This document shows, one piece after another, positions 1,885 to 39,160 of a stretch of DNA of 43,241 nucleotides; positions within the stretch are counted from its first letter, which is position 1; each line of letters starts with the position of its first letter. Below the pieces are notes generated by a model. The model had not been told where the DNA came from and did no database searches. It was given only the letters and a program-made list of their open reading frames with translations. The stretch spans positions 1-43,241 of the IMG/VR virus record IMGVR_UViG_3300044837_000103; one strand, given 5' to 3'. Source of the DNA: a virus. The translations under genes and the position numbers were made by a program.

Positions 1885-1893
1885 GGATAAATT

Positions 1894-2565
1894 ATGGCAT
1901 TTCTTGCACCACTAATTGGATTGGGACTTTCTGCAGCCGCCGGGGCATTAGGGGGCGGAGCACAGAAAAGTACAACATCGCAGACTTCTACGCCGAATAT
2001 TCCTAGTAATGTACAACCATTACAGAATGGGGTTATTAGTTCTGCTCTATCAGGATTGGCGGCGCCGGATCTCAGGGGTTACACTTCTACTGGAATGCAA
2101 CAGATTGCAGCCGGTGGAAGGGCCAATTCTAATATCCTTAAAAATACTCTTGCGGCCCGAGGTTTAACCTATTCTTCCCCATTGGCTACATCTGAAGAAC
2201 AAGCCAATACATTGAATACTACGGGGCAACAAACTGGATTTATGAATAGTATTCCATTAATTCGCCAACAACTATTACAGCAGAATCTCTCAGGGGCTGT
2301 GAATGCATTTAGGGCACAACCTTATGGTAGCACTGTAAATGGAACAGCGTCTATTAGTCAACCCGGCGGAGTTCTCGGGGGACTTTTAGGCGGTCTCGGC
2401 GCAGGAAATTTGATGGGCGGAAATAGTTCTAATGGCGGTTCTGGAATTGCTGGTATTATTGCACAATTATTACACTTGGGCGGGGGTGGAGTAACAACAC
2501 CGAATAATTCTGATCCTAATTATTCTCCAGATGCTCCGGGATCTTATGATACGGGAGGTTTCTAA
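1894..2565 (+). CDS. Ejection-type internal virion protein, small (223 aa)
   Basis: The N-terminus MAFLAPLIGLGLSAAAGALG is a Gly/Ala-rich hydrophobic segment. It is followed by a Ser/Gln/Asn-rich body and a C-terminal Gly-rich tract (GGVLGGLLGGLGAGNLMGG). Hydrophobic glycine-zipper N-termini followed by Gln-rich helices are typical of the smallest of the three podovirus ejection (internal core) proteins, comparable in position and size to T7 gp14. Such proteins leave the head and insert in the host envelope during DNA entry. It is first of three consecutive genes of this type. The call rests on composition and order, not on a defining motif. Confidence 0.5.
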   Translation: MAFLAPLIGLGLSAAAGALGGGAQKSTTSQTSTPNIPSNVQPLQNGVISSALSGLAAPDLRGYTSTGMQQIAAGGRANSNILKNTLAARGLTYSSPLATSEEQANTLNTTGQQTGFMNSIPLIRQQLLQQNLSGAVNAFRAQPYGSTVNGTASISQPGGVLGGLLGGLGAGNLMGGNSSNGGSGIAGIIAQLLHLGGGGVTTPNNSDPNYSPDAPGSYDTGGF

Positions 2566-6951: not shown

Positions 6952-6978
6952 TCATTTATTTTTCTCTTTTTTAATTTA

Positions 6979-7257
6979 TTAGAAGGGAATGTCGTCGTCA
7001 TATGGTTCCTCCAACGCCGCTCGCAGCCGGGAGAGTTCGCTGTTTGCCACTGCAAGCTTTTCTTTGCAGACGACGAGTTCGGCTTCAACTTCAATTAATT
7101 CATCATGCATATAATTAATTTCTTTTTGAATTCTACATAGCATATAATTTTTTTCAGCTAATTCTTGTTGGCAGGTATCCAGCTTCTCCTCGCAGGCGGC
7201 GAGTGCGGCCTGTAAATTGTTTATAGTAATGCTCGCTTCTCTCTGTTCGTTCGTCAT
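6979..7257 (-). CDS. Coiled-coil protein (92 aa)
   Basis: The chosen start is the ATG at 7255-7257, which overlaps the polymerase TGA (ATGA) and follows GAGGAAATTTT, a clear ribosome binding site. A longer frame exists upstream but is unlikely. Residues ~10-82 form an almost uninterrupted heptad-like helix (LQAALAACEEKLDTCQQELA, VEAELVVCKEKLAVANSELS), ending in an acidic tail (PYDDDIPF). The acidic DDDIPF C-terminus recalls the tails of ssDNA-binding proteins that dock replication partners. This may be a polymerase accessory or oligomerisation factor; the role is unproven. Confidence 0.6.
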   Translation of the reverse strand: MTNEQREASITINNLQAALAACEEKLDTCQQELAEKNYMLCRIQKEINYMHDELIEVEAELVVCKEKLAVANSELSRLRAALEEPYDDDIPF

Positions 7258-9665: not shown

Positions 9666-9667
9666 TA

Positions 9668-10075
9668 TTATTCACTGAGCCAAGAATAATTACACGCGCG
9701 GCAGAAATAGTACGGGGTTGGAACGTTTTCATTTTTATCTATTCTCTTAACATCTCCCTCGACTTTACAATTGGGACAGATAAGGGTAAAAGTTTTTATA
9801 TTGATATCTCTTATAGCATCTCCCTTAACTGGATAAACCATTTTAGCTTGAAATTTATCCCCCATGTGAACAGTCAGTTTGAGAATTTTCTGTTCTAGCA
9901 TCCAATGTGCTTTTCGAAGGTCATCTATTTCTGGCTCCCCGGCTTTTCGGCCGGCGCGGAGGATATATGAAACTGCTGAGCCTTTATAGAAGTCTAGTTC
10001 AAATGCATCTATAACTTTAATAGCTTCGAGTCCATCAATGCCTATGTAATGTGATGGATTAAATTTGTCGTTCAT
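9668..10075 (-). CDS. DUF3310 protein with C-terminal zinc ribbon (135 aa)
   Basis: The start at 10075 (MNDKFNPSHY) overlaps the upstream stop as TAATG and follows AAAGGA; a longer upstream frame lacks this. Residues ~5-60 match DUF3310 (NPSHYIGIDGLEAIKVIDAF, then YILRAGRKAGEPEIDDLRKA). Members of this family include T7 gp1.7-like nucleotide kinases, and many phage copies are tied to dNTP metabolism. Residues ~97-130 carry CPNCK...CRACN, a zinc ribbon that I would not expect in the core family. It lies directly before the DNA polymerase. Confidence 0.75.
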   Translation of the reverse strand: MNDKFNPSHYIGIDGLEAIKVIDAFELDFYKGSAVSYILRAGRKAGEPEIDDLRKAHWMLEQKILKLTVHMGDKFQAKMVYPVKGDAIRDINIKTFTLICPNCKVEGDVKRIDKNENVPTPYYFCRACNYSWLSE

Positions 10076-20879: not shown

Positions 20880-21016
20880 TGTATAAAAGTCTTAAACAGG
20901 AAGGTTTATTTCATAGTAAGAATTCTCCAGTCTCTAAGAGTGTTGTTAAAGAGTTTGATCGTGCTACAAAGGGTAGATCATTACCCAAAAGTGCACCGAA
21001 AAAGGGGAAGAAGTGA
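20879..21016 (+). CDS. Small basic protein (45 aa)
   Basis: The ATG overlaps the previous TAA (TAATG). The frame is MYKSLKQEGLFHSKNSPVSK followed by a lysine-rich tail (SAPKKGKK), and its stop overlaps the next gene's GTG (GTGA). The basic, disordered character is like the small proteins at 26706, 29132 and 31239. It may bind nucleic acid or be a virion-associated peptide. Confidence 0.5.
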   Translation: MYKSLKQEGLFHSKNSPVSKSVVKEFDRATKGRSLPKSAPKKGKK

Positions 21017-21504
21017 AAAATAAGCTTACACCACTTATATCTTTCTTATTATTCTTACCTCTCCCCCTCTTTTCTCAGACATTTTCTCAAACTTCGACTT
21101 GTACTCTTTCTTCCACCGCCTGTGTAGTCACGATTCAACAACCGGCGGCGCCTCTTAAGAACTACCGTTTTAAATCCTTCTCCATTACATCTACAATTGC
21201 CCTTTCAGTTAATGTTGAAAAAGGGGCTAATCTTGCTACAACCACGGCGGGGACCCCGGCGGTTTTAGATTTACCCACGGGAACTGCTGAGGCTCTTTCA
21301 TTTACTGCTTCAAATGCATCTGCAAATACTGTCGTTGGCACATATCAAGTTGGCGCCGGCGGCGGTTACTCTATTGACCTTTCCTCGATATATTTTCCAG
21401 GAGCGACCGCACAATCAAGCGGCCGTCAGGCTACCACAATTCGAACTTCTGCCGCAACAGGCACGGTATCTATTGTGATAGTATGGCAAGAATTAAGCTC
21501 CTAG
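21013..21504 (+). CDS. Exported small protein of spike cassette 1 (163 aa)
   Basis: The GTG start overlaps the previous stop (GTGA), with GGGGAAG upstream. The N-terminus MKNKLTPLISFLLFLPLPLF then SQT is a clear Sec signal peptide, with cleavage most likely before Q. The mature part is a beta-rich ~140-residue domain with IDLSSIYFP near the end and VSIVIVWQELSS at the C-terminus. It is paralogous to the 161-aa protein at 23966, sharing QQPxxPxKNxRF, FTxSNAxAxxVxGxY, IDLSxxYxP and xIVWQELS. Its last 22 nt overlap the next spike gene. It may chaperone, anchor or be a subunit of the exported spike (inference). Confidence 0.7.
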   Translation: MKNKLTPLISFLLFLPLPLFSQTFSQTSTCTLSSTACVVTIQQPAAPLKNYRFKSFSITSTIALSVNVEKGANLATTTAGTPAVLDLPTGTAEALSFTASNASANTVVGTYQVGAGGGYSIDLSSIYFPGATAQSSGRQATTIRTSAATGTVSIVIVWQELSS

Positions 21505-23969
21505 GAATTTTCCTCTTTTTTACCCTTCCCTCTTTCTCCCAAACCATTATTGCCGGATATGGTTCCTCTGGAACTTCCGGTTCAAATAACGGTATTACAT
21601 CATTAACTGGAGATGTTTCTGCTTCTGGCCCTGGGGCCGCCGCAGCAACTGTAACCGCAATTAATGGTGTAAGTTTAGGTAGTCTTGCTACGGGAGTTCT
21701 CAAGAATACTACAACAACTGGAGTTCCATTTATTTCCAAAGTTGCGCTTACTGAACCGGCAAGTTCGGCAACATTAACTATTGCCAATCTTAAAACTCTT
21801 ACGATTAGTAATACTTTAACTTTTACTGGAACTGATAGTTCTAGTGTTGCCTTTGGAACTGGTGGAACGGTTTTATATAACGGCGGAGCACTTGGAACGC
21901 CGAGTTCTGGTGATGGAACGAATTTTATAAATATTCCCTTATCTTCTTTAACTGGATTAGGGACTTCTGTTGGAACATTTCTTGCCACCCCAACGAGTGC
22001 CAATCTTGCCTCGGCAATAACAAATGAAACAGGGACGGGACTTTTGGTATTTAATAATGGTCCTACATTTATTGCTCCGCTTCTCGGAATTCCGGCATCA
22101 GGAGTGGCAACAAATCTAACCGGATTACCTCTTTCCGGTCTTCTTGCACAATCTGCCGATACTGTTGTTGCAAATGCAACGGGAGGTTCTGCATCTCCAA
22201 CGGCGGTGGCTTGGCCAACAACTGGAACAAATGGCTGTTCTGGAGTTTCTAATGCAATAGGGTATAATACCACTACCCATTCTTTTGTCTGTAATACAAT
22301 TTCTGGCTCCGCCACCAATGTTTTTACCGTAGATAATGTTATTGCTGACGGCGCTGTTGGGGATTGTTCTACAGATGATACGGCGGTTATCCAAACGGCC
22401 CTGACAAATTCCCAAGTCGTATATTTTCCCAAACCAACTACTTGTTATTTTACTACCAATACCCTCTTTGGAAAATCTGACCAATGGATTATTGGAGCAT
22501 CGAGACCGGTAAGTGGAACGAATGGTGGGATAAAATCCAATAATACTATCGCCGATGGTTTAGCCTTTACTAAAAGTGGAACTATTCTTGCAAAATATGT
22601 TTCTGGAGGCTCCGCGACGGGTTCTACAGGGCAAACTTGTAATGTAACAGCGTTTAATGGGACTGTAGGTTCGGGTGCTCTTGGTAAAATTAAACTAACA
22701 GGAAGTAACAGTATTGTTGGTGGAATTATTTCCATGACGGCATATGGAACTGGATATACTGGAACTTCTACACAAGCAACACTTACTACTGATACTGCAA
22801 CCTGTTCGGGAAATATTGTTATCACATCTTCCCTTGGTCAGGGAGCAAGAAATGTTTACATTCAGAATTTAAATATCGCCGACGGTGTTTCTGGTACCAG
22901 AACTTCAGGAAATGGATTGGTTATAGATGGGACCGGGGATGCAGCAATTGCTCATGTAACAAATACTCATGTTTTTGGTTTTGAGAACAGTCTTGATGGG
23001 CTTGGATGGATTAATTCTTCAGTTGATAATTCAAGATTTGATCTTCCATTGAACGATGGGTTACATTTCCATGGACAAACCAATACTGAAGTTGATGTTT
23101 GGTCCACATATGTAGATGCAGCGGCGAGATATGGTTATTACTGTTCAATTTGTAACTATTCCAGATTCATTGGAACATCTAATGACGCTTCTGGTTCGGA
23201 TTGTATGCATTTTGAAACGGCGGACGGGGGACAATCTCGTGGATTAACACTTCAACCCGGCTGCGAATCTACAACAGCGGGTCATGGAATTTCCTTGGAT
23301 GCATCTGGAGTCTCTATTTCTGCAATGGCAATTACAGGAATCCCGGCGGGAAAATCTGTAATCTTCCTAAATGGTGCTGATACAGTTAGTATTGATGGTG
23401 GATATGGTACGGGTGGAGATTATACTGTAAATCTTAATGCCGATCCTGGTCACGGTGGAAATCTAAACAGTATTCGGATTCTTAACCCCATTCACGGCAC
23501 GCCGACCTATAATGATGTCAATAATAGAATTCTTGGACGATTCTATAATTCATCTGAAATTGCAGTTAGTGATTTAACCGGGCTAACTGCTGCATTAACT
23601 ACTCATGCACTATATACCCCGGCCAATTCTGGAAGATACAGGGTATCTTATACCGCCAAAATTACAACTGTAGCTTCCACTGGCGCTGTTACTTCCAATC
23701 TTGGAGGAACAACTGGATTTGTTCTACATTATACAGATTCTGATGATTCCGTCGCCCAAACATTAACACTTCCTGCCACGGCGCAAACTGGAAATACGGT
23801 TACAATTGGTACAGGGAATACTACAAATACCACGACAACGATTTCTCAAGGCTCCGCCGTTGTAAACGCCAAAACTGCCGTGGCTATGACTTATGATTTC
23901 GGTTATGCATCCAATACTGCTGCCCAAATGGCATATTCTATTCATGTTACTGTTGAGATGATGCAATGA
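21483..23969 (+). CDS. Exported tailspike-like protein 1, pectate-lyase type beta-helix (828 aa)
   Basis: The start ATG lies inside the previous gene (22-nt overlap), with no ribosome binding site, so translation may depend on coupling. MARIKLLGIFLFFTLPSFS then QT is a signal peptide. Residues ~30-275 have fibre-like repeats (LGTPSSGDGTNF, GVATNLTGLPLSGL). DGAVGDCSTDDTAVIQ (~287-302) is the entry motif of pectate-lyase-like beta-helix spikes. A Gly/Asn-rich solenoid follows, and the C-terminal ~130 residues form a different beta domain (SGRYRVSYTAKITTVASTGA). Such proteins bind and often cleave surface glycans. The signal peptide is atypical for a virion part assembled in the cytoplasm. Confidence 0.75.
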   Translation: MARIKLLGIFLFFTLPSFSQTIIAGYGSSGTSGSNNGITSLTGDVSASGPGAAAATVTAINGVSLGSLATGVLKNTTTTGVPFISKVALTEPASSATLTIANLKTLTISNTLTFTGTDSSSVAFGTGGTVLYNGGALGTPSSGDGTNFINIPLSSLTGLGTSVGTFLATPTSANLASAITNETGTGLLVFNNGPTFIAPLLGIPASGVATNLTGLPLSGLLAQSADTVVANATGGSASPTAVAWPTTGTNGCSGVSNAIGYNTTTHSFVCNTISGSATNVFTVDNVIADGAVGDCSTDDTAVIQTALTNSQVVYFPKPTTCYFTTNTLFGKSDQWIIGASRPVSGTNGGIKSNNTIADGLAFTKSGTILAKYVSGGSATGSTGQTCNVTAFNGTVGSGALGKIKLTGSNSIVGGIISMTAYGTGYTGTSTQATLTTDTATCSGNIVITSSLGQGARNVYIQNLNIADGVSGTRTSGNGLVIDGTGDAAIAHVTNTHVFGFENSLDGLGWINSSVDNSRFDLPLNDGLHFHGQTNTEVDVWSTYVDAAARYGYYCSICNYSRFIGTSNDASGSDCMHFETADGGQSRGLTLQPGCESTTAGHGISLDASGVSISAMAITGIPAGKSVIFLNGADTVSIDGGYGTGGDYTVNLNADPGHGGNLNSIRILNPIHGTPTYNDVNNRILGRFYNSSEIAVSDLTGLTAALTTHALYTPANSGRYRVSYTAKITTVASTGAVTSNLGGTTGFVLHYTDSDDSVAQTLTLPATAQTGNTVTIGTGNTTNTTTTISQGSAVVNAKTAVAMTYDFGYASNTAAQMAYSIHVTVEMMQ

Positions 23970-24451
23970 AAAAATTATTACTGTTGGTATTATTAACTGG
24001 GGCTCCGCTGTTTTCCCAAACCTATTATTCCTTCTCTGGATCTTATACTGCCAGTGGTAATCCAATTGTATTGACTGTTCAACAACCTATTACTCCGACA
24101 AAAAATTTTCGATTCGTTGGAGTTGAAATTGATAATCAGGATTCTTCGAATGGGATTACATTTACTGCGGAGCGAAATGGTGGAACGGCAACTGTAACCG
24201 CCGGGACATATGTTCCAGTGAATCCTCAGGATGCCCCCGGAACAGCATTAGTTTTTACAACTTCTAATGCCGGTGCTGGATCAGTTATTGGTAATTATTT
24301 TGTAGCCCCGTTGACCTTTCGTGTTATAGATCTTTCAAAAGTTTATCTTCCTTTTGTTACATCTGCACCGACGAATAATTTTACTCTTAGATCTGGGACT
24401 TTTACAGGAACTGTTAAGATAACTATTGTATGGCAAGAACTTTCCAATTAA
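23966..24451 (+). CDS. Exported small protein of spike cassette 2 (161 aa)
   Basis: The ATG overlaps the previous TGA (ATGA). MKKLLLLVLLTGAPLFSQT is a textbook Sec signal with Q after the likely site. The mature domain aligns along its length with the 163-aa protein of cassette 1 (LTVQQPITPTKNFRF, FTTSNAGAGSVIGNYFV, IDLSKVYLP, ITIVWQELSN). Divergence is considerable, so the duplication is not recent. The last 22 nt again contain the start of the following spike gene. The domain is all-beta and may be a jelly-roll or Ig-like fold. Confidence 0.7.
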   Translation: MKKLLLLVLLTGAPLFSQTYYSFSGSYTASGNPIVLTVQQPITPTKNFRFVGVEIDNQDSSNGITFTAERNGGTATVTAGTYVPVNPQDAPGTALVFTTSNAGAGSVIGNYFVAPLTFRVIDLSKVYLPFVTSAPTNNFTLRSGTFTGTVKITIVWQELSN

Positions 24452-26679
24452 TCTGTCTCTTACTCGGTATTGCTATTATAGGGGCAAATCTGGCCGTGTT
24501 TGGACAATTGTCTCAAACTGGCAATGGCACCGGCGCTCCCGGGGCATCTTTACCTTTTACTTATAATCAAGGTTCTACTTTTGCACAAACCCAAACAGGA
24601 CAAAATGCTTTACAGCAATCTTTAAACGTATCTAATTGGGGGGCATGTCCGGGATGCTCTGATACAGATAATCTTACTAATATTACCCATGCTATCCAGT
24701 ATGCTGCACCTTTGGGACAATTGTTAACTTGTCAAGGTGTTTATAATGTAAATGGATCTCTTCCTATTCTTCCGGGAATGGCAATTCGAGGTAATGGTGT
24801 AGGTTTGAATCTTACAGGTTCTGCTCCGGGATGCCAATTTCATGAAACTGATCCTACAAAGCCTATATTTGCAACCGATCCACTGGCTAGAAATTCTATT
24901 GTTGATGTGTATATTGGTTATATTGGACTTGATGCAGGAACAGATGGGCTTAATATTTCAGGTCAAGATTCCTCAAATCCCACGATTGTTTCTGATCCCT
25001 ACATTGAGCATGTTCAGTTTACAAATCAAACTCATGCTAATATTTATGTAAATGGTCATGGTGGATGGCAGAGATTAATAACTAATTTTAATTCTTTTTC
25101 AATGCCCCCTGCCGCTGGCACCTGTAATGTGTTGAAAGATACGGCAGCAGATATTTTTTCCTTCTTGGGAATGTGGCATTCAACTGATGACAAATGGGAT
25201 GGGGGATATCAGAATGTTTGTATTACAAGTGAATCTCCTAGTACTGGAAATTTAATATTTACTCATCCTAGGCTCCAAGGTTCAGTCCGAACCCCGATGG
25301 TTTTTGCTGGTAATATTAATCATGTGGAGATTACTAGGTTAGACTGTGAACTTTTGAATGAATCAACTGTTCCTCTGGTAGTTGCTTATACTTCTGGAAC
25401 TGCCACCGCGACATCACATACAGTTACTGTTGCTTCTGGACTCCATATTGTAAATGGGGATGTTATTACTATCGAGGGTGCGGGAACTTCAGATCCAGTG
25501 TATGGACGCGGCGGGACTACACTGGGTGTAGACTTTTCTACAGTTGTTACTGCCGGCGGCGGCACAACTACACTTACAACAGCCGATGCAATTCCATTAT
25601 CTGTCACCGGGGTTGCCGTTACAAATGCCCAAGATGATATCATAGATTTTGTTCCTTTTTCAACTTCTGGAGCTCCTTTTAATCTCATTTTTAATGATGG
25701 AATTTTTGCTGGCTCAGTTAATTCACGTATTCGTTATTCTGTTAAGATTCCCTTTGGTTCATTTTGGGCTAGATTTAACAATCCTACTCTTTCCATTAAC
25801 TATCCCGTCTATGACCCCGCCAACATTGTTCAAATGAACGGGGCAAAAACTCCACCGATTGGAACAAGTTCTGTCCATAGAATTCCTAAAAATGCACTTG
25901 GAACAGCTGGTTCGATTCAACTTCCTCAAGTTGTTTATGCAATAGATAAACCTTTTGATGGAAATCTCTCATATCCTACTCAAACTCTTGGCAATCCTGG
26001 TATTTATGGTGGTCATGTTACTTGGGGTTGTGGAGATGGAGGAACTACACCAGGAACTCAGGGTTGTGGAGTTTCTGGAGTTTATGGATATGCTTGGTGG
26101 TCTAGAGTTTCTAATTTTTTCCGCCCAATATTTGGGATATCTTGGGATACGGGTACAGTAATGATTGGCCCTAAATTTAACGATTCTGGGAATCATGCTA
26201 ATCTTACTATTGGTCCGGTGGGGGAAAATGTTAATGGCGCTGATAATACTATTACTCTTGCCGCGGGAACTATAGCTTCTGGCCATACGGCGGCGCAAGC
26301 GGGAATTACTTATGTTGATGATGGGCATTTTTATATTGCTGACGGGGGAGGAAACCTTACTAATCTTTTTCAACTTCGTCCAAATATGGGTATGTCCGCA
26401 GCAGTTACAGGAACAGGATGTACTAGTACTGTAACTAGAGATGGTCAAGGTCAAATTGCTGCAAGTGCAGTAACCCCAGGAGTAGGCTGTACAGTTACTT
26501 TTAATCCTTCTGAACCCTGGTATGGAGCATTTCCAAGTTGTACGGCATCGACTAATCAATTAACTGCTGCCGGATCTATTTTGGGAATTGATTCAGCCCA
26601 TTTTGTAATTTCTGGAGTTCCATTTAGTGGTTCAGGTACATTTACAGGAAATCTAACATATGTCTGTGGTGTAAATTAG
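24430..26679 (+). CDS. Exported tailspike/fibre-like protein 2 (749 aa)
   Basis: MARTFQLICLLLGIAIIGAN and LAVFG before QLSQ give a hydrophobic N-terminal signal. Residues ~50-130 (SNWGACPGCSDTDNLTNITH, QYAAPLGQLLTCQGVYNVNG) are a diverged version of the pectate-lyase entry region, followed by beta-helix-like repeats (VDVYIGYIGLDAGTDGLNIS). The C-terminal ~150 residues include GPVGENVNGADNTITLA and IADGGGNLTNLFQL, typical of fibre tip regions. The start lies inside the previous gene by 22 nt, exactly as in cassette 1. It probably recognises a different surface target from spike 1. Confidence 0.7.
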   Translation: MARTFQLICLLLGIAIIGANLAVFGQLSQTGNGTGAPGASLPFTYNQGSTFAQTQTGQNALQQSLNVSNWGACPGCSDTDNLTNITHAIQYAAPLGQLLTCQGVYNVNGSLPILPGMAIRGNGVGLNLTGSAPGCQFHETDPTKPIFATDPLARNSIVDVYIGYIGLDAGTDGLNISGQDSSNPTIVSDPYIEHVQFTNQTHANIYVNGHGGWQRLITNFNSFSMPPAAGTCNVLKDTAADIFSFLGMWHSTDDKWDGGYQNVCITSESPSTGNLIFTHPRLQGSVRTPMVFAGNINHVEITRLDCELLNESTVPLVVAYTSGTATATSHTVTVASGLHIVNGDVITIEGAGTSDPVYGRGGTTLGVDFSTVVTAGGGTTTLTTADAIPLSVTGVAVTNAQDDIIDFVPFSTSGAPFNLIFNDGIFAGSVNSRIRYSVKIPFGSFWARFNNPTLSINYPVYDPANIVQMNGAKTPPIGTSSVHRIPKNALGTAGSIQLPQVVYAIDKPFDGNLSYPTQTLGNPGIYGGHVTWGCGDGGTTPGTQGCGVSGVYGYAWWSRVSNFFRPIFGISWDTGTVMIGPKFNDSGNHANLTIGPVGENVNGADNTITLAAGTIASGHTAAQAGITYVDDGHFYIADGGGNLTNLFQLRPNMGMSAAVTGTGCTSTVTRDGQGQIAASAVTPGVGCTVTFNPSEPWYGAFPSCTASTNQLTAAGSILGIDSAHFVISGVPFSGSGTFTGNLTYVCGVN

Positions 26680-27393: not shown

Positions 27394-28917
27394 GTGGATT
27401 CGACAATCTCAGTACCGATGAAGTTCTTAACTCCTGAACAGGAGAAGTTTTTCAATGTAACATTGAAGAATTCTATGTTCTCGGGTGGATTCGGTAATGG
27501 GAAAACAACGGCCGGATGTATGAAATTGGTATATCTTCTGGCCACGTTCCCCAATTATAGGGCTGTTGTGGCACGATATGAGGAATCCAAATTAAAACAG
27601 ACAACAATGGTTACGTTTTATAAAGTATGCCCCCCGGCTCTTTATGATCCTCAGAAAGGTGGAAATCGAGCAGATAGTTTAAATATGCTCCGGCTTGTTA
27701 ATGGTTCACAGGTTCTTTTTATGAATCTAAAAGATACCGATGATGCTATGGTTCGAGGTCTTGAGATTAATAGTGTTCTGGTAGATCAGGCAGAAGAGAT
27801 TTCGGAACAAATGTGGATTATGCTCGCCGCCCGTGTTAATAGATGGGATAGGGCAATAATTCCACAGTATCTATTGGATACAGATCCTGATTGGCCACGT
27901 TTTCCGAATGGTAATTATAAACCGCCGGCTTACATGATGGGCTTGTGTAATCCGGATAGTGAATTGCATTGGATCTATCGACGTTTTCATCCCAAGAGTG
28001 AGCAGTTTCAGAATAAATATCATACCAAGCACATTATGATTGAAGGGGCAACAACTGTTGCCACTATTGATCCTGAATTACTTGAAGATATGATGGAGAA
28101 TGATGATTCTTGGGTAGATAGATTTGTACTGGGCAAATGGGGAATACCAGGCGGAGCAATACATAGAGTCCTGGATGAAAGTATTTTGAAGATAGGGGAA
28201 AATTGTGAATACGATTTCGTTCAAAAGGTCATTTCTCAAGGACATTTGGCACGCGTCTTGGATCACGGTGATAGTGCTCCTACTTGCTGTTTATGGTTTT
28301 CTGCTTTCAAAGGAAACTATTATTGCTATCGTGAATATTATAAACCGAACGCTCTTATAAGTGAACATAGAGCGAATATCGCGGAGCTGTCGGGTAAGGA
28401 AACATATATCAGGAATCTAATTGATCCCCAATGTGCCAAGAAAACTATGCAGAAATATGGTTCTCGATGGTCACATGTGGAAGAGTATATGGATACTATG
28501 ATCGACGCTCCGCCGATATGTTGGCAACCTGGAGATAATAATGAACTTGTTACTAGAAACCGCATATCTGAACTCCTGCGTAAGGATTCAAAAAATATAC
28601 ATCCAACAATGGGGACCCCTGGTGCACCAAAGTTATATTTTATTGAACGTTCCGATGAATGGCCAACGGGTTGTTACCATTCAATCTCTCAATTAAAGGC
28701 ACAAAAGAGAGAAAAAATAGGCTCCGTGGAAGGTAAAGATATGTTCTCGGATGATCGGGAAGAGGGAGTTCCAGATCACGCATATGATCCTTTGAGATAT
28801 TATGTCGCGGATCATAATATCTCCCCGGCGGCGCCCAAGAGAGCACATAATCCAAATAGTTTTATGGCTATAAGAAAGAATTTTCTAGAATATCAGAGGA
28901 ATGTGGCATTGATATAA
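27394..28917 (+). CDS. Terminase large subunit (507 aa)
   Basis: Walker A is GGFGNGKTT (residues 31-39) and Walker B is VLVDQAEE (128-135). A GLCNPDS segment fits the ATPase coupling region. The nuclease domain has VLDHGDSAPTCC, RNLIDPQ and DHAYDPLRYYVAD, the spaced acidic residues of the RNase H-like fold. It packages DNA into the prohead through the portal encoded downstream. The indicated start is GTG; the ATG nine codons later (27418) is also possible because neither has a clear ribosome binding site. Confidence 0.92.
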   Translation: MDSTISVPMKFLTPEQEKFFNVTLKNSMFSGGFGNGKTTAGCMKLVYLLATFPNYRAVVARYEESKLKQTTMVTFYKVCPPALYDPQKGGNRADSLNMLRLVNGSQVLFMNLKDTDDAMVRGLEINSVLVDQAEEISEQMWIMLAARVNRWDRAIIPQYLLDTDPDWPRFPNGNYKPPAYMMGLCNPDSELHWIYRRFHPKSEQFQNKYHTKHIMIEGATTVATIDPELLEDMMENDDSWVDRFVLGKWGIPGGAIHRVLDESILKIGENCEYDFVQKVISQGHLARVLDHGDSAPTCCLWFSAFKGNYYCYREYYKPNALISEHRANIAELSGKETYIRNLIDPQCAKKTMQKYGSRWSHVEEYMDTMIDAPPICWQPGDNNELVTRNRISELLRKDSKNIHPTMGTPGAPKLYFIERSDEWPTGCYHSISQLKAQKREKIGSVEGKDMFSDDREEGVPDHAYDPLRYYVADHNISPAAPKRAHNPNSFMAIRKNFLEYQRNVALI

Positions 28918-29132
28918 TGAAGGGATTAATACTATCAGTTCTATTACTTGGACAAGGGGTACTTCCATTACCTTGTCCTAATTCTCCGTTGCCTCCCCCT
29001 TGCCCCGCCGATGGATCTCCATGTGGGCCGAATTTATTTCTCGTTACTATTTATGTTCCTGTGTATATTCCACTTTACGGGGTCTTTAACTATGTTCATC
29101 AATATTGCTCCCCGGGAAATGTGCCTCATTAA
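28917..29132 (+). CDS. Small Pro/Cys-rich exported or membrane protein (71 aa)
   Basis: TAATG overlap with the terminase gene. MKGLILSVLLLGQGVLPLP is a signal-like hydrophobic start. A cysteine/proline-rich stretch follows (CPNSPLPPPCPADGSPCGPN), then a second hydrophobic, Tyr-rich segment (LFLVTIYVPVYIPLYGVFNY). Spacing suggests a small envelope protein or lipoprotein-like peptide. A role as a spanin or envelope partner is possible but there is no defining motif. Confidence 0.5.
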   Translation: MKGLILSVLLLGQGVLPLPCPNSPLPPPCPADGSPCGPNLFLVTIYVPVYIPLYGVFNYVHQYCSPGNVPH

Positions 29133-29323
29133 TGTTACCCCAAATTCCTAAATTACCGGCAATTGGTGGAGGATCTAAACTTCCAGCCGTTGGGAAATCC
29201 GGCGGGGCACATTCTCCTTTGCCTGGGACAAAACTTGAAATTAAACCAATGATTAAGTCTTTCAATGACTTTAAGAAAGTTCACTTTGCTCCCTTGGCGG
29301 GGCAGAGATTGAATCTTAAATAA
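29132..29323 (+). CDS. Small basic protein (63 aa)
   Basis: The ATG overlaps the previous TAA (TAATG). MLPQIPKLPAIGGGSKLPAV is a Pro/Gly/Lys-rich disordered sequence ending in a basic helix (MIKSFNDFKKVHFAPLAGQR). It ends with TAATG into the portal gene. Similar small basic peptides occur at 20879 and 31239. It could be a head-associated peptide. Confidence 0.5.
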   Translation: MLPQIPKLPAIGGGSKLPAVGKSGGAHSPLPGTKLEIKPMIKSFNDFKKVHFAPLAGQRLNLK

Positions 29324-31236
29324 TGGCTGAATACGATCACTACTCGAATTTAACTTACGGTACCAACAGTACATCCTCGACTGATACTAAGGCAGCCGTG
29401 TGGTTAGATCGTATTAAACAGGCAAAAGAATATAAAAAAGCCTGGTCCCAGAAAATGAAGGCCGATAAGATGGAACAATATTATATGGGCCAACAGTGGG
29501 AACCAAGTGGAACTAATTATGAGCCGTATACAATTAATCTCGTTTTCTCTGCTATTGAAATTAAACTGCCAACTCTATTATTTACTGAGCCTGTATACCA
29601 CACCAAGCCTAAGCCTCAAGGTTCGGAGTATGATTATGATTCCGCTATTAAAAGAGCTTTGCTTAGAGAAGACATGCTCAATACAGCAGTTAGTGCCTAT
29701 ATCCCAAACTTTGCAGGAACGATTGAGGCAGGAGTACTCGATGCTTTCTTTCGTTTCGCAGTTGTCGAAGTCGGATATTCGGCAGATTGGATAGATAATC
29801 CAAATGCGGACAAGCCAATATTAAGATCGGATACTGATAATAATTCTACATTTGTTGATGGTAAGGGAAATGTAATCAAACAGCCTTTGAAACTTCCAGC
29901 GGCGGAACGAGTATACGTTAAGAGAATTCATGCTCGTAATTTCTACGTCGGTGGTATAATGAATGGAGAAACTCTTGATTCCTGTAACTGGTGTGCTTAT
30001 TGGGAGTATGTTCGAGTCGAGGATGTTAAGGCAAATCCAAATCTCAAGAATCGAGATCTCCTCGATTATTCGGGGCATAGATCCCCAGATTTTGTCAAAA
30101 CAGAATATGGCCCCGAGGTTGATGCATTATGTCGCACCGGGGATATCATGCGAATGTGGCATGTGTTTGATAACAGAAAAAAAGTTAGATTACTAATTTC
30201 TGATCCTCAAGCTCTCACACATAAAACTGAACCATATGAGAGGCTACCTTTATTTGACCTTCGATTCCATAAATTAAATGAGGGTTGGTATCCTTTACCT
30301 CCGGTAAGTAATTGGAAATCTCCACAAGATGAATATAATGAAGCCCGGGAGCAACAGCGGAATCATCGTAAACGCTTCACGAGAAAGTTCGTATACAACG
30401 GGGCTGCTATTACAGATGAAGAAGAACAGAGTAAGCTATTTAATGGTGGAGATGGAACATTTGTCAAGGTACAAGGGGATACGACTACAGCGATTAAACC
30501 AATTGATAATGCAGAACTTGGAGCGAGTTCGGGTATTGGATTAACAGTTAGTAAAGATGATTTCAATCTTATCTCTGGAACATCTTCTGAAGAACGTGGT
30601 GAAGTCGATAGGACCACGGCAACACAGGCTAACATTACAAATCAAAAGGGGATGATTCGGGATTCCCGGGGGCGAATTCAAATTGCTGAATGGTTGAGTA
30701 GGATTGGCAAGGAGATATTATTAACTATTGAAGAAAAATTCACTATGCCAATGTGGGTTAAGATGGAAGTGGGCGCCGGCGATCCCGGGGAGGCACTACC
30801 AGATGTTCAAGAAATTTGGCATAGAGTTACATCGAGCGATCTTGAAGATAAACATGGTGACATGGATATATCTTTTGATGTTAACATCTCGCTTGACTCA
30901 TTATCTCCTGTTGAAAACGATCAAGATCGACAAGCATTCTTGCTCTTTATCTCGACAATGCAGCAATTTCCCGAACTCAGCATGGACCCGGAGCTTGTAC
31001 GTGAAGCTGCTTATAAATGCGGTTACAGAAATGCAAAAGTTATACGTAGAATGCAAGCAGCTGCCCAGTTAATGTTGGTCCAAAAAATGGAACAATTGGG
31101 CGCCGCCGCACAAGGGGCTTCTGCACAAGCATTGGGAAGTAAAATTGGACAGGGACAAATTGCTCAGGCCCAACCCCCGGTCCAACAGCAAATTACAAAT
31201 CAGTTACAAAATCCAACGACACAAGGTGGAATATAA
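29323..31236 (+). CDS. Portal protein (637 aa)
   Basis: Position, length and sequence fit a podovirus/P22-type portal. The N-terminal YTINLVFSAIEIKLPTLLFT is the usual helix of portals (NLVFxxIxxxxPxLLFxEP). The middle has a long helix after PQDEYNEAREQQRNHRKRF and the helical barrel-like segment TQANITNQKGMIRDSRGRIQ. The C-terminus is Gln/Ala-rich (QKMEQLGAAAQGASAQALGS). It forms the dodecameric vertex ring that connects head, terminase and tail. It overlaps the preceding gene by TAATG and precedes the scaffold-like gene. Confidence 0.88.
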   Translation: MAEYDHYSNLTYGTNSTSSTDTKAAVWLDRIKQAKEYKKAWSQKMKADKMEQYYMGQQWEPSGTNYEPYTINLVFSAIEIKLPTLLFTEPVYHTKPKPQGSEYDYDSAIKRALLREDMLNTAVSAYIPNFAGTIEAGVLDAFFRFAVVEVGYSADWIDNPNADKPILRSDTDNNSTFVDGKGNVIKQPLKLPAAERVYVKRIHARNFYVGGIMNGETLDSCNWCAYWEYVRVEDVKANPNLKNRDLLDYSGHRSPDFVKTEYGPEVDALCRTGDIMRMWHVFDNRKKVRLLISDPQALTHKTEPYERLPLFDLRFHKLNEGWYPLPPVSNWKSPQDEYNEAREQQRNHRKRFTRKFVYNGAAITDEEEQSKLFNGGDGTFVKVQGDTTTAIKPIDNAELGASSGIGLTVSKDDFNLISGTSSEERGEVDRTTATQANITNQKGMIRDSRGRIQIAEWLSRIGKEILLTIEEKFTMPMWVKMEVGAGDPGEALPDVQEIWHRVTSSDLEDKHGDMDISFDVNISLDSLSPVENDQDRQAFLLFISTMQQFPELSMDPELVREAAYKCGYRNAKVIRRMQAAAQLMLVQKMEQLGAAAQGASAQALGSKIGQGQIAQAQPPVQQQITNQLQNPTTQGGI

Positions 31237-32259: not shown

Positions 32260-33357
32260 ATGTCAACTTATGGCGTAAGTTCAGCTCCGTCGCAAAATAC
32301 TATTAATTACGATAGTATTCTATCGACGTCTCTGTTCAATTACCAGCGGACACTGACTGATAACATCAGTAAGAGTAACGCCTGGTTTTATCGCGTCCAA
32401 GAGAATGGTATGTATGAAGGTTTGGATGGTGGAATTGCCATTCAGATCCCACTTATGTACGCTTTGGGCGTTGCGGATTGGTACGACAGCTATGATACAT
32501 TGTCTACTGATCCTACGGACGGTATTACTTCTGCATTCTTCGAATGGAGACAGTTGGCCGCTCCGGTTACAATTTCGAGGAAAGAAGAACGGCAGAATTC
32601 TTCAACTGATCGGATTATTGATCTTCTAAAAGCTAAGATCATGCAATCCGAATTGGGATTGAAAGAATTATTCGGTAAAGCCGCACTTCAAGGTTCATAT
32701 GCATCCGGTGGTTCAAATATCGCCCAACCGGCGGCGTCTGGACAAAACGGGGCACTCGGAATTGAACCATTCTTTAGACTTGTTTATAAAGATGGAACGG
32801 CGCCGAGTGGAGGTACTGTAGGAAATATTAATCCTGCAACTTCAACTTGGTGGCAGAATCAGTTTAAACAGAGTAATTTGACATCTTCTAATAAAGCCTC
32901 TGATTTCCTTCTTGAAGCCGATCAAGTATTTAATACGGCGTCAAAAGGCCCCGGCGGTCCCCCAGATACCATTCTGGTAGATCAATATACCTTCCAGCTT
33001 TGGAATACGGCTTATTATCAAGTCTATCGCCGAATGGCCGATAAAGATGATAATTTCCCCTTCCCGAACATTAAGTTCCACAATGCAGTTGTAACGTGGG
33101 ATGAATTTGTTCCAGACGTTTTCAATAACACTTTGACTCCTAATACTGGTGCCGGGACTGCTCTATTCCTGAATACCAAGTTTATGGCTGTCAAATATGA
33201 TTCCGAGACGAATTTTGTCGCCACCCAGTTCATGAAACCTGTTAATCAGGATGCACGTGTGGCACATATTCTCTGGATGGGTAATATTTGTACTTCACAG
33301 CGACGTAAACACGCTGTGTGGTTTAATTTGCCCCGGACTCTAACTTGGGCTATCTAA
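32260..33357 (+). CDS. Major capsid protein (365 aa)
   Basis: The gene follows scaffold and precedes a decoration-like gene, the usual order. The sequence has HK97-type features: an N-terminal arm, a spine region with IAIQIPLMYALGVADWYDSY and QLAAPVTISRKEER, a long helix (STDRIIDLLKAKIMQSELGL), and an A-domain with DTILVDQYTFQLWNTAYYQ. The C-terminus has QDARVAHILWMGN. AATAGGGAGTTTTC precedes the start. It should be the most abundant virion protein. Confidence 0.88.
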   Translation: MSTYGVSSAPSQNTINYDSILSTSLFNYQRTLTDNISKSNAWFYRVQENGMYEGLDGGIAIQIPLMYALGVADWYDSYDTLSTDPTDGITSAFFEWRQLAAPVTISRKEERQNSSTDRIIDLLKAKIMQSELGLKELFGKAALQGSYASGGSNIAQPAASGQNGALGIEPFFRLVYKDGTAPSGGTVGNINPATSTWWQNQFKQSNLTSSNKASDFLLEADQVFNTASKGPGGPPDTILVDQYTFQLWNTAYYQVYRRMADKDDNFPFPNIKFHNAVVTWDEFVPDVFNNTLTPNTGAGTALFLNTKFMAVKYDSETNFVATQFMKPVNQDARVAHILWMGNICTSQRRKHAVWFNLPRTLTWAI

Positions 33358-34063: not shown

Positions 34064-34294
34064 ATGTTTCTCTCTCTTGTTTCAGAAATCATAGTAGATC
34101 CGACAATAAGTTTAGGAAGTATTATATCCTTTGTTGGTATACTAGGTAGTCTTTGGGTAATGCACGCGGCTAATGTAAAAAGAATAACATCCATAGAGAT
34201 GAAAGTAGAATTATTATTTGAATGGTTTAAAAAGAGGCTAGAAGATAATGAAGACTCTCGTAGTAACAAACGTTCTGACTCAGGTAGAAGCTAG
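34064..34294 (+). CDS. Small membrane protein with helical tail (76 aa)
   Basis: AAAGGTAACT precedes the ATG. Residues ~15-35 form a hydrophobic helix (ISLGSIISFVGILGSLWVMH), followed by a charged amphipathic tail (KVELLFEWFKKRLEDNEDSR). One membrane span with a soluble charged tail is also seen in holin/antiholin-like and superinfection-exclusion proteins. It overlaps the glycosyltransferase gene by 47 nt and follows the partial terminator. Confidence 0.55.
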   Translation: MFLSLVSEIIVDPTISLGSIISFVGILGSLWVMHAANVKRITSIEMKVELLFEWFKKRLEDNEDSRSNKRSDSGRS

Positions 34295-35042
34295 GGCATA
34301 TAGTTCCCATAACCAGGAATGGTTTAGAATGGGACGTAATTGTAAACCTGAAGATCAATTTATTCACTTTGCTCCCCACAGGAGTTCTATTGATCGAACT
34401 CGAAATGAGGCTGTTAAAAATGCGCTCATTTGGGGAGCAGATTATTTATACTTTATTGATGATGATATGATCCTGACCCCGGATACATTTAAACATCTTG
34501 TTGAAGCCGATAAAGATGTTGTTATGGCCGATACATGTGTCAGGGGATATCCATTTGATCCGATGCATTTTATCGACCCGGCGGACCCCGGGTTTGAGAA
34601 TCCAGATCACGAAGTGAATAATCTACATCATTTCCATAAATATAGGGATTATGTAGATGATAAGGGCCTTGTTAGAGTTGATGCCATTGGATGTGCCACG
34701 GTGTTATTTAAGGTTAAACTATTTCGAGATATCCAGCCCCCGTGGTTTGTGACAACGGCGTCGATGACAGAGGATGTTTACTTTTGTCTAAAGGCTCAAC
34801 GACATTATGGACGGAAGAATTTCGGAGTTTATGTCCATACCAAAGTACCCACGGCGCATATCTTAGAACCGGAAGTGATTTATCCAGCGGTTAGACAGTT
34901 ATTTATTGATCGCTGTGAAGAAGATAATCCTCAGTTGAAAGAAATTCGTTTAGCCGAGTCCAATCCTGATCGTGGAGATAAGTATACAGAAAGAGTCCTA
35001 GAATCCTTTAAAGAAGAAAAGGAGTATGCCTCTCCATGCTAA
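34248..35042 (+). CDS. GT-A type glycosyltransferase (264 aa)
   Basis: YLYFIDDDMILTPDTF (~63-80) holds the DxD/DDD metal motif of GT-A glycosyltransferases. SIDRTRNEAVKNALIWGAD precedes it, as in family 2-like enzymes. VDAIGCATVLFKVKLFR and SMTEDVYFCLKA fit the acceptor-side GCxxL and E/D-D-x-x-F segments (the latter like the catalytic ED motif). It probably transfers a sugar from a nucleotide donor in the cytoplasm. Overlap with the methyltransferase gene (7 nt) suggests joint action, perhaps on a phage protein or a host surface glycan. Confidence 0.8.
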   Translation: MKTLVVTNVLTQVEARAYSSHNQEWFRMGRNCKPEDQFIHFAPHRSSIDRTRNEAVKNALIWGADYLYFIDDDMILTPDTFKHLVEADKDVVMADTCVRGYPFDPMHFIDPADPGFENPDHEVNNLHHFHKYRDYVDDKGLVRVDAIGCATVLFKVKLFRDIQPPWFVTTASMTEDVYFCLKAQRHYGRKNFGVYVHTKVPTAHILEPEVIYPAVRQLFIDRCEEDNPQLKEIRLAESNPDRGDKYTERVLESFKEEKEYASPC

Positions 35043-35608
35043 TTCTAAATCTCGGTTGCGGCTCCAATAAGATAGAGGGGGCGGTTAATGTTGACATTGA
35101 AACGTCTTGTAAACCTGATCTTATTCATAATTTTACTCACGTTCCTTTACCTTATGGCGAGGGTTCTGTGGACAGAGTGTATCTATTCCATGTAATCGAA
35201 CATATTCCTAAAAAACTTCATAGGTTTGTTCTGAGTGAAATCTCAAGAGTTCTTAAACCCGGTGGAGAATTTTATGTGTCTTATCCTGAATTTATCGAAT
35301 GTGCAAAGAGGTACATCGAGAATACCGAAGCAAAGAGAGATTTTTGGGAAGCAACATTGTACGGACGACAGTTGTATGAATCCGATTTCCACGTCGCCCT
35401 CATGTTCACACCCCATTTTCTCGAATCTCTCAGAGAATTTGGATTTTCTAGAGTTATTGCACACCCAGAACCTGAAGAGTATAATACTGTCGTGTTTGCC
35501 GTAAGGGCAAATGGAAAAGTTCAAACAATTGAAGAGAATTACAATGCCACTTGGAGGCTACCAGATGCTCAAAAAGTTATTGCTCCTGTCGATACTTCTA
35601 CCTTGTAG
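35036..35608 (+). CDS. SAM-dependent methyltransferase, class I (190 aa)
   Basis: MLILNLGCGSNKIEGAVNVD is the glycine-rich SAM-binding motif I, followed by an acidic D at the end of beta-2. YLFHVIEHIPKKL is the HxxEH-type motif IV region, and ISRVLKPGGEFYVSYP is the common post-helix motif (LKPGG). This is the short methyltransferase type often found in glycan biosynthesis clusters. It lies between the glycosyltransferase and the third spike. It may cap or modify a sugar added by the neighbour. Confidence 0.8.
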   Translation: MLILNLGCGSNKIEGAVNVDIETSCKPDLIHNFTHVPLPYGEGSVDRVYLFHVIEHIPKKLHRFVLSEISRVLKPGGEFYVSYPEFIECAKRYIENTEAKRDFWEATLYGRQLYESDFHVALMFTPHFLESLREFGFSRVIAHPEPEEYNTVVFAVRANGKVQTIEENYNATWRLPDAQKVIAPVDTSTL

Positions 35609-38483
35609 TTTATACTGTCAGACTCTAGTAGATTACAATACTCAGATTAAGAATCTTCCAGCCTCCCCATTTCAATCTTTGGGAAATCCAAAGGCTGTTT
35701 GTAACGGATCATTCGATGATACATCTGCATTCCAACAGGCGGCGCTGACACAGGTCAATCTGGTGGTTTTGGTCCCGGCCAAATCTATTTGTACATTGAA
35801 TGCCAATGTTACATTGGGATCAAAAGTCTCACTTCAATTTGAACCCGGGGGACAGATCAAAGTTAATTCTCCATATACTCTTACCCTAGTTGCCCCATTT
35901 GTCCCCGGAGTTACAACCGGACAGATTTTCACCGGCGCAGGTACAGTTGTATTCCAGAATGTACATGATTCTTACCCAGAATGGTTCGGGGCTATAGGCA
36001 ATGGAAGTACTGATGACAGTAATGCTTTTAATAAGATATTTGCAATTTCTGTCCCCACAATTGTACATTTGGCTAAGAATTATGTCATTGCTTCATCTAT
36101 TTCCTACCCAGATACTTTCTCTTGGGATTTTACTCCTGGTGGAGTTCTTTCTCCGGGTAGTGGACAAACTATAGCTCTCAATGGAAATCTTGATGCTAGA
36201 ATGATTCAAATCTTCAGTGGATTAGGCTCTGTTGCCATATTCTCCGGCCCAGTATATCCACAATGGTACGGGGCTAAATGTGATGATGTAGCGGACGATG
36301 TTCCCGGATTTACAAGATTGATTAATTCTGGTTTCGGTGGTACTGTTATTATTAATGCGTTTTGTGCTATTAATACTAATCTTACTGTACCTACAGGTAT
36401 TAATTTAAATGTTCCTCAGGGGGGTTTTCTTACTGTAGGCCCCGGGGCGACATTAACTATAAATGGTCCATTTTATGCTGATACTCCGACTGATGGATCA
36501 TTTGGTGTATTTGTAACTTCTACGGGAACAATTTTATTTAGTCCTATGGTAAATTCCGCAGTAAATCCAATGTGGTGGGGTGCAATTGGAGATGGGATTG
36601 CAAATGACCAGCCGATGATTCAGGCGATGTTAAATTCTGGTAGTACAAATTTAGATTTACTTGGAAATCAGTATGCCATGTGCCCGGGATTGACTTTAAA
36701 TACCGCCGGTGCACATCTACATGGATTGAATAAATATGTAACCAATCTAAAAATGATTGATGGTTGTCAAGCTAGTACACAATTACAGATTGGAATTCCC
36801 GGCGGCGCCCCGACGGATGGGGTAATTGTAGAAGGCATTCGTTTCGACGGGAATAATAATGGCGGTCTGGGACTTGCTACGGGAGTTTCAGCTTATAATA
36901 ATTCTGCAACCTATTATTCTGATGGATTTACTGGATCTGTCGGTGGGGGCGGTCCCCAAACGGTATTATCAAATGGATCTTGTTCCGTAAGTGTTCCTTG
37001 TACAGTTTATAAAGTTCTCCAGAATGGTGTTACTGGCATAGCCCCGCCGAATGCTACATATTGGCAGCCAGTTCAGGCTGGTATTACTATTAATGGCAAC
37101 GGTTTGATTATCGGTGTTAATGGTAGTCATGTTAAAGTTAATGATAATCAGATGGTTAATGGGCAAATTGGTCTCTTCTGGTATGCTGGAACATACCTAG
37201 AATTTAATAAAAACTATGTCCATAATTTCGCCGATACTAATCAATATATGGGTAATGATGTTGCCGTCGGAGCTATTATAACTGCCACGGGGGCAAACTA
37301 TCTTCAGGTTAGGGGAAATACATTTGATACTATTTACGCCGGCACTCTTGGTCCTGCTGCAACTTCGGCTATTTTACCTTCGGGGGATAATGTAACTGTT
37401 ACGGATAATACTTGTGTTAATGTAATTAACCGTGGCGGTGGATCACTTATTGGAACAGCATCTCAAGTAGCAACGAATTGGGTGGTTAGTAATAACGTTG
37501 TGGGCCGGACTATTGGTCAGATTAATCATGATCAAACTAATGGAATTGAGGTTGAGACTTCATTTGCAACTATTACTGGAAATGTTATCGAAGGTTTTGA
37601 TTCTGGTGTCTCTGTGTCCGGTAATGGATTTGTTCCACAGCAGCAGGCTTATACTGTAGTTACGGGGAATACAATTATTGGTGATAACTGTGCATTAAGT
37701 GGCCACGATACTCCATTCTGCTACGGAGTGTTCCTATTTGGAAATAACACTGGTACCGCCTCATCTGATTTTGGGATGGTGTCGGGGAATAATATCTATA
37801 ATACCTATTATGGCGTTATTAATAATGTAGCTAACGTTGGTAATCGTATAGGGATAAATAACTTTGGTAATGTTCAATTCGAGATTGTAGACAATGGGGG
37901 CGGAGCATTATTTGTTCCCCCGGAGGTTACAGAATCTATTAATGCTGATACTACAATCAATGTCGCGGTGGCCGCGACGAATTATTATGGAGGGCAGACT
38001 TTACCTTTACTTACTAACGGTGTAAACGCCGCTGCAACTATTCCCGGAACAGTATACCACATGAAGAGTGTTATATTTATTCAGAATACTTCAGGTGGTT
38101 CCGATTATCATCTAGCTGTTAGGGCATTTATGGGGCACTTCCCAAGTACATTTGTATATTTTGCTCCAGAATTCACGGGTGGAATTGTAGTCTTGAGGAA
38201 TACAACACGTGGTGTGTTAAACCTTGATTTGTATTGTACCATTAATGTCGTTGCCACATCCGGTGGTTCATTATGCCAAGGAACAGGGATTTATGATGAT
38301 GGAAATTTGAACTATAAAACCCTCAATTGGTTCATGCCTGTGAATGGTTGGGCAACGAATGCTTTAAGTTCAAGTGATCTTTTTGGCTTAAATTTCTTCT
38401 CTTCTGATTCTCCCGGGGCCGATTTGACCGTACAAATGTATAACACAATGTACGAAGTCAAGAAGCCAATGCACACAAACTAA
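35565..38483 (+). CDS. Exported tailspike-like protein 3 with four pectate-lyase entry repeats (972 aa)
   Basis: The start at 35565 follows GGAGG (35553-35557) with 7-nt spacing; an upstream ATG at 35511 is rejected. MLKKLLLLSILLPCSLYC before QT is a signal peptide. Four related motifs mark tandem beta-helix entry units: NGSFDDTSAF (~47-56), WFGAIGNGSTDDSNAF (~140-155), WYGAKCDDVADDVPGF (~234-249) and WWGAIGDGIANDQPMI (~337-352), with ~95-100 residue spacing. A beta-helix with Asn/Gly turns follows, and a beta-rich C-terminal domain. Likely glycan-binding or depolymerising. It overlaps the methyltransferase gene by 44 nt. Confidence 0.75.
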   Translation: MLKKLLLLSILLPCSLYCQTLVDYNTQIKNLPASPFQSLGNPKAVCNGSFDDTSAFQQAALTQVNLVVLVPAKSICTLNANVTLGSKVSLQFEPGGQIKVNSPYTLTLVAPFVPGVTTGQIFTGAGTVVFQNVHDSYPEWFGAIGNGSTDDSNAFNKIFAISVPTIVHLAKNYVIASSISYPDTFSWDFTPGGVLSPGSGQTIALNGNLDARMIQIFSGLGSVAIFSGPVYPQWYGAKCDDVADDVPGFTRLINSGFGGTVIINAFCAINTNLTVPTGINLNVPQGGFLTVGPGATLTINGPFYADTPTDGSFGVFVTSTGTILFSPMVNSAVNPMWWGAIGDGIANDQPMIQAMLNSGSTNLDLLGNQYAMCPGLTLNTAGAHLHGLNKYVTNLKMIDGCQASTQLQIGIPGGAPTDGVIVEGIRFDGNNNGGLGLATGVSAYNNSATYYSDGFTGSVGGGGPQTVLSNGSCSVSVPCTVYKVLQNGVTGIAPPNATYWQPVQAGITINGNGLIIGVNGSHVKVNDNQMVNGQIGLFWYAGTYLEFNKNYVHNFADTNQYMGNDVAVGAIITATGANYLQVRGNTFDTIYAGTLGPAATSAILPSGDNVTVTDNTCVNVINRGGGSLIGTASQVATNWVVSNNVVGRTIGQINHDQTNGIEVETSFATITGNVIEGFDSGVSVSGNGFVPQQQAYTVVTGNTIIGDNCALSGHDTPFCYGVFLFGNNTGTASSDFGMVSGNNIYNTYYGVINNVANVGNRIGINNFGNVQFEIVDNGGGALFVPPEVTESINADTTINVAVAATNYYGGQTLPLLTNGVNAAATIPGTVYHMKSVIFIQNTSGGSDYHLAVRAFMGHFPSTFVYFAPEFTGGIVVLRNTTRGVLNLDLYCTINVVATSGGSLCQGTGIYDDGNLNYKTLNWFMPVNGWATNALSSSDLFGLNFFSSDSPGADLTVQMYNTMYEVKKPMHTN

Positions 38484-39160
38484 TGTTTACGAGACTTTCA
38501 GTTCGGCGCCGGATACAACAGAATCTCTTCGATGTCATTGGTACGTACTTTGATAAAGATATGGTCAATGACGAGATCCAGGATACATATACGGATATTG
38601 TATTAAGGGCACAATGTATTGAAGCAAAGTGTAGCATTCTTTGGCAGGATCATCAAATTTATATCGATCTCTATAACTGTGTATCTGATTGTGAGTCTTT
38701 AGCCCGCTACTGGCGACCAACGAGATTATTCAATCAGGCAACGAATAGATGGTTGAAAGTTGTAGATACTATTTTTCTTGATAAATATCAGTATAATTGG
38801 GAAGTTTCCAATGGAACCCCCTGGTATGCAGTGATAGAATCATATCGATATCTTGGATTCTTTCCACATTATGCTCAGGGCGCCGGGCAAAGTTTTGATA
38901 TGTTCTATAAGGTAGGATTAGATGTATTGACAAGTGATCTACAAGGGATTCAAATTCCGCCGGCGTACAACACTCTATTGATGAACGGGGCAACGGGTTC
39001 ACTATTGGAATCTATTGGAGAACTTAAAAAAGCCCAGGTCTATTTTGAAGCCTATGAGAAAGATCTTTTGGAACTTATTGTACATACTTCATCCAGAATG
39101 CTCCCTGATCGGTATGAACAGTTGAATGATTTAGATTTCCCGTCACAATCATTACCATAA
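38483..39160 (+). CDS. Tail/head-tail structural protein (225 aa)
   Basis: TAATG overlap with the spike gene. The sequence is helical and aromatic-rich (RLSVRRRIQQNLFDVIGTYF, YRYLGFFPHYAQGAGQSFDM, LLESIGELKKAQVYFEAYEK). Its position, directly before the adaptor-like gene, and its all-alpha character suggest a head-to-tail connector component or tail completion protein. No diagnostic motif is seen; the call rests on gene order. Confidence 0.5.
   Translation: MFTRLSVRRRIQQNLFDVIGTYFDKDMVNDEIQDTYTDIVLRAQCIEAKCSILWQDHQIYIDLYNCVSDCESLARYWRPTRLFNQATNRWLKVVDTIFLDKYQYNWEVSNGTPWYAVIESYRYLGFFPHYAQGAGQSFDMFYKVGLDVLTSDLQGIQIPPAYNTLLMNGATGSLLESIGELKKAQVYFEAYEKDLLELIVHTSSRMLPDRYEQLNDLDFPSQSLP

Follow-up and report, generated by a model that had tools for sequence, protein, structure and literature searches.

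Predicted export cassettes of a small protein and a spike, joined by equal 22-nt gene overlaps, in a tailed-phage genome

The virions of tailed phages assemble in the cytoplasm and their spikes are generally thought to be made and attached there, while the N-termini of tail fibres normally act as virion anchors. Among the closest known systems to the locus described here is the tail fibre of the Burkholderia phages, gp49 of Bcep781 and gp48 of Bcep43. Phages are known to export endolysins with signal peptides through the host Sec system, for example Lys44 of phage fOg44 (PMC6116005); they share signal peptides with the proteins reported here, yet are lysis enzymes and not spikes (PMC6116005). 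As to gene arrangement, the coat-lysis pairs of RNA phages are coupled at -50 nt in MS2 and -38 nt in fr (PMC12548453). As in the present locus, the second gene of each pair begins within the first, and in these RNA phages its start is used after termination of the first (PMC12548453), but the coat and lysis genes are unrelated to the genes described below and coupling was measured in MS2 and fr, whereas here it is inferred. Overlapping pairs enriched for heteromeric complexes fall into a range of -8 to +10 nt (PMC10666635), and the 22-nt overlap (-22) found here lies outside this range.

Gene layout and predicted export signals

The DNA analysed, called the window in the following, spans 43,241 bases and makes up an entire virus record of IMG/VR. 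Its gene content suggests a lytic tailed phage of the podovirus type. Matches to PHROG identified a terminase (27394-28917) and a portal (29323-31236), and a capsid protein (phrog_9953, 32260-33357) is kin to Mx8-like phages at 24-30% identity. The capsid relatives in IMG/VR reach at most 32% identity, and no close phage relative was found by a terminase search. An SU10-type adaptor is encoded within 39160-40914 on the plus strand; the adaptor has a long N-terminal extension, which by eye consists of some three to four similar repeats (LxxIPxxxxSLQLYxNGVLQ...) and may form neck appendages. The replication block is on the minus strand. A single protein (7254-9665, minus strand) combines DNA polymerase A, exonuclease and an N-terminal uracil-DNA-glycosylase-like domain (E = 3e-4 for the latter). 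Between terminase and portal, a plus-strand ORF of 71 aa (28917-29132) is rich in Cys and Pro and has a hydrophobic, signal-like N-terminus.

Four plus-strand genes, located between a run of small genes and the terminase, are linked into a single chain in which neighbours overlap by 22, 4 and 22 nt in turn. The first (21013-21504, GTG start) encodes small protein 1 of 163 aa, which is predicted to be all-beta and to carry a signal peptide at residues 1-21, followed by QTFSQT...; its start shares 4 nt (GTGA) with the end, at 21016, of a short ORF upstream. The second (21483-23969, ATG start) encodes spike or fibre 1 of 828 aa with a predicted signal peptide at 1-19, a fibre module at 117-218 and a C-terminal beta region. 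Its stop codon overlaps the ATG start of small protein 2 (23966-24451, 161 aa, predicted signal peptide 1-17) in an ATGA of 4 nt (23966-23969), and the chain ends with spike-like protein 2 (24430-26679, ATG start, 749 aa, predicted signal peptide at about 1-25, 13 Cys in the mature protein). The initial annotation had described two head-to-tail cassettes with the spike ATG at the same place in both small genes and, indeed, the ORFs and the signal-peptide-like N-termini of all four proteins were recovered. Both overlaps amount to exactly 22 nt and lie at gtATGGCAAGAA in each copy: spike 1 starts within the last codons of small gene 1 (21483-21504, ATGGCAAGAATTAAGCTCCTAG) and spike 2 within those of small gene 2 (24430-24451, ATGGCAAGAACTTTCCAATTAA). 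In the window, 9 of 1587 ATGs open at least 700 codons, and the four ORFs and their signal peptides are more than chance. The arrangement with its 22-nt overlap is real and unusual.

Signal peptides were searched for with a heuristic scan script, which found a basic n-region, a hydrophobic core and an SPase I-like site in 5 of 38 tested genes of the window: the two small/spike pairs and a third spike. In the comparison loci, 36 of 1615 genes carried such a signal (P = 0.0015). The five genes are all adhesin-like or neighbours of adhesin-like genes and belong to the late module. A putative cleavage site F-[SG] before Q is present in both small proteins and in spikes 1 and 2, and a cleavage-like end [FY][SGC] before Q was found in all five candidates.

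The third candidate spike (35565-38483, plus strand, 972 aa, MLKKLLLLSILLPCSLYC before Q) starts 44 nt inside an upstream methyltransferase-like gene, has a strong Shine-Dalgarno sequence (SD) of its own (-9.3 kcal/mol) and has no small partner. Its only match to known tail families is 37 residues long (phrog_17312 tail protein, E = 6.5e-5). Directly upstream, glycosyltransferase-like (Anp1) and methyltransferase genes are encoded (34248-35608, plus strand). Since this spike carries a predicted export signal without a small neighbour, a small partner is not required for export, and the proposal of an obligate pair does not hold for exported spikes generally.

Equal overlaps and translation starts

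The equal overlap had been taken to imply selection for stoichiometric translation, but equal length alone is insufficient for this. Both small proteins end in VWQELS plus one residue and, since they share these last residues, the distance to the stop codon is fixed. An ATG arises wherever Val is encoded by GTA before Trp. Calculated from the codon usage of the phage and given the shared VWQE residues, the probability is 0.097 that both copies have the ATG and 0.029 that both have the ATG together with an identical block of 12 nt; an identical run of 12 nt anywhere in the small-gene pair has P = 0.28 under synonymous reshuffling. The identical overlap is, therefore, weaker evidence than the initial annotation supposed. 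Equal overlaps are expected from a single ancestral junction together with conserved C-terminal residues, provided that the spike start must be kept, and the identical junction is best read as one inherited event that was probably retained since the spike needs its start codon.

The absence of a ribosome binding site at the spike starts was borne out. The duplex energy with the anti-SD sequence was -3.1 kcal/mol at 21483 and -1.4 kcal/mol at 24430, near the random median of -2.7 kcal/mol, whereas 28 of the 41 listed starts of this phage scored -5 kcal/mol or better (two entries of the list, 26938 and 40913, are placed off the start codon). The start of small gene 1 is preceded by an SD-like AAAGGGG (-7.8 kcal/mol). 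Starts without an SD occur at 23966, 38483 and 39160 as well. In both cassettes no other start codon lies closer than the spike ATG to the stop codon of the small gene, and both show the features by which termination-reinitiation pairs are recognised, an overlap and no independent downstream SD. An SD-less ATG in this position would fit termination-reinitiation, with the qualification that starts without SD are also found at 38483 and 39160. An RNA hairpin controlling the spike start was considered and rejected, since neither junction showed a special fold (z between -0.19 and 1.49), and an Rfam search gave no support for a known RNA element.

Small proteins, spikes and their relatives

The small proteins are paralogues, as had been proposed, with 42% identity over 167 columns (E = 3e-26). 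Only 30% of the aligned identical residues use the same codon, which argues that the copies are old. Neither protein matched a sequence family in Pfam, PHROG or the PDB. A check by profiles and structure prediction had been recommended; it returned no homologue from the collections that could be reached, but it did give an all-beta fold of low confidence. Homologues were found neither by tblastn in phage and plasmid collections, nor by peptide-pattern scans with short exact motifs in IMG/VR and GTDB genomes, nor by a profile search of the retrieved comparison loci and 38 whole records of capsid relatives. The motif QQPxxPxKNxRF gave only chance matches in IMG/VR and genomes, and a scan for the overlap motif ATHGTATGGCAAGARYT, which needs a short exact match, yielded 55 loci, all of which lacked a comparable small ORF. 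AlphaFold models built from the two sequences were all-beta sandwiches (pLDDT 55 and 64), that of small protein 2 being an 8-stranded beta-sandwich of low confidence. Foldseek matched the models weakly to generic jelly rolls (TM-score by query length at most 0.48, and at most 0.47 against the PDB), too weakly for an assignment to a TNF/jelly-roll family, which was rejected.

Residues 117-218 of spike 1 are a phage tail-fibre repeat module with 50-59% identity to proteins of podoviruses (E down to 2e-16), for example in MW202483.1 of Pseudomonas phage PfAn1, and by this shared module spike 1 is placed among the tail-fibre/spike proteins; unlike spike 1, these podovirus proteins have no signal peptide. 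Near residue 290, 'DGAVGDCSTDDT' resembles a pectate-lyase-like region by eye, without a Pfam match. Spike 2 has no relatives in Pfam, PHROG or the phage collection, and no catalytic family was recognised by the Pfam search. Homology between spikes 1 and 2 was rejected, the best segment being of low complexity (E = 0.014). Only M-A-R is common to both N-termini, and these residues are dictated by the overlapping V-W-Q-E codons. The pairing of paralogous small proteins with unrelated spikes suggests a cassette in which the small gene is constant and the spike can be exchanged. The three mature spikes contain 10, 13 and 13 Cys, which would permit disulfides in the periplasm; this is a weak argument, since early cytoplasmic proteins of the phage are equally rich in Cys.

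Relatives of the fibre module of spike 1 were examined in the 80 best-matching IMG/VR loci, 78 of which had a readable N-terminus. Only one of these 78 (L223) carried a signal peptide, and since the other 77 do not, spike 1 is suggested to be a fibre protein that acquired its signal secondarily. L223 is a phage record of 43.5 kb in which five consecutive signal-peptide genes (L223:2907-10410) are located between a tail fibre and a gene read by eye as lysozyme-like; they are preceded by a protein that is not exported and has the N-terminal anchor of a tail fibre (phrog_1640, 3e-23). Two capsid relatives of the window phage showed similar features. L119 encodes a predicted exported tailspike (1687-3561) upstream of the portal and, besides, a predicted exported protein of 109 aa whose gene overlaps, by 4 nt at 14387, that of a spike-like protein of 692 aa with a predicted export signal as well. 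L135 has a predicted exported pair of 388 and 87 aa with a 4-nt overlap. Another contig with the fibre module (L256, IMGVR_UViG_3300007169_000025, 104 kb) encodes CsgF (1.7e-18), CsgG (8.9e-49), curlin-repeat and FecR-domain proteins at 6820-9997; either the phage carries a curli system or the contig contains host DNA.

Interpretation and comparison with known systems

The most economical reading, which we favour tentatively, is co-translated Sec export of the spikes together with a small beta-sandwich partner; the evidence does not firmly separate it from its rivals. The late operon of a tailed phage would encode Sec-exported spikes or fibres, two of them in cassettes with the small protein. 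Ribosomes that finish the small gene would re-initiate at the spike ATG, 22 nt before the end of the small gene, so that small protein and spike would be made together. Both would then cross the inner membrane via Sec, as their signal peptides suggest, and fold in the periplasm, where the small protein would most likely bind its spike as a partner, chaperone or cap. Lysis would free the spikes, which may dock on virions or act free as surface-binding or matrix-degrading proteins. This reading draws on the exact 22-nt overlap seen twice, the SD-less spike starts in a genome that uses SD and the absence of a nearer start codon. It also draws on the apparent conservation of the small proteins beside unrelated spikes and on the apparent recurrence of exported fibre or spike genes in L119, L135, L223 and in gp49 of Bcep781. 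Against it, spikes exported from a cell in which virions assemble in the cytoplasm need a hypothetical late docking step, the third spike appears to be exported without a partner, the overlap is outside the enriched range, the junction RNA has no special fold and the structure models are weak.

Alternatively, the overlap may have arisen incidentally from tight gene packing and a single tandem duplication; small proteins and spikes would then be exported but act separately, without a stoichiometric link. This is not our expectation, but it has to be taken seriously: all genes of the block, and many elsewhere in the genome, overlap the adjacent one, the shared C-terminus accounts for the equal overlap, the ATG pair having a probability of 0.10 and the 12-nt run one of 0.28, starts without SD occur elsewhere and a third exported spike does without a partner. 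What speaks against mere packing is that the spike ATG stayed in place although the copies agree in only 30% of codons at identical residues, and that the small gene was retained beside two unrelated spikes.

The exported proteins may instead be secreted or periplasmic effectors and not virion parts: either depolymerases or adhesins by which the host matrix is loosened, or surface proteins acting against superinfection. This, too, is not our expectation but has to be taken seriously. A Sec signal would remove the proteins from the cytoplasm, where virions assemble, the virion of L223 may already have a fibre in its phrog_1640-anchor protein, and phages do export other proteins such as the signal-peptide endolysins (PMC6116005); on the other hand, the spike 1 module is known from tail-fibre-like proteins, the exported spike of L119 is related to an annotated tail fibre and a catalytic family was not recognised in the Pfam search. 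A more elaborate version of co-translated export, a two-component exported receptor-binding system of lytic phages in which an exchangeable spike, made in lockstep with a conserved small protein of the periplasm, would be escorted or capped by it outside the cytoplasm until lysis while the spikes are finished in the periplasm, appears improbable at present. That the hydrophobic N-termini are retained membrane or virion anchors and not Sec signals is very unlikely since, although the Sec assignment is heuristic and anchoring is the normal role of tail-fibre N-termini, all five proteins have the basic start, the hydrophobic core and the same [FY][SGC] end before Q, and unrelated proteins share this pattern, as expected for a host export signal.

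Some lytic phages appear to place Sec signals on fibres or spikes, and in the phage of the window two such spikes would be accompanied by a small exported protein that is new. The feature seems to be rare, recurring and largely unremarked, and a search of the open-licence PMC literature found no study of such fibres. If true, fibres and spikes with Sec signals, some with a small exported neighbour, would point to periplasmic maturation or a secreted role. It would also be a warning for annotation that exported beta-rich proteins on viral contigs may be phage adhesins and not host contamination.

The predicted exported tailspike of L119 is 28% identical to gp49 of Bcep781 (L260:1906-3984; E = 5e-13), which GenBank annotates with a 'possible signal peptide domain' and which has a Sec-like signal, MKKNKHVLFGVLLTACGLPAFAQ. 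The Bcep781 fibre has no direct sequence match to the spikes of the window, and gp50, encoded upstream of gp49, lacks an evident signal peptide and does not match the small proteins. Like the spikes of the window, gp49 starts inside its upstream gene, there with an overlap of 4 nt. Bcep781 is a cultured lytic phage in which the signal of gp49 is apparently unstudied and, since the pattern occurs in several phages including this one, it can be addressed at the bench already.
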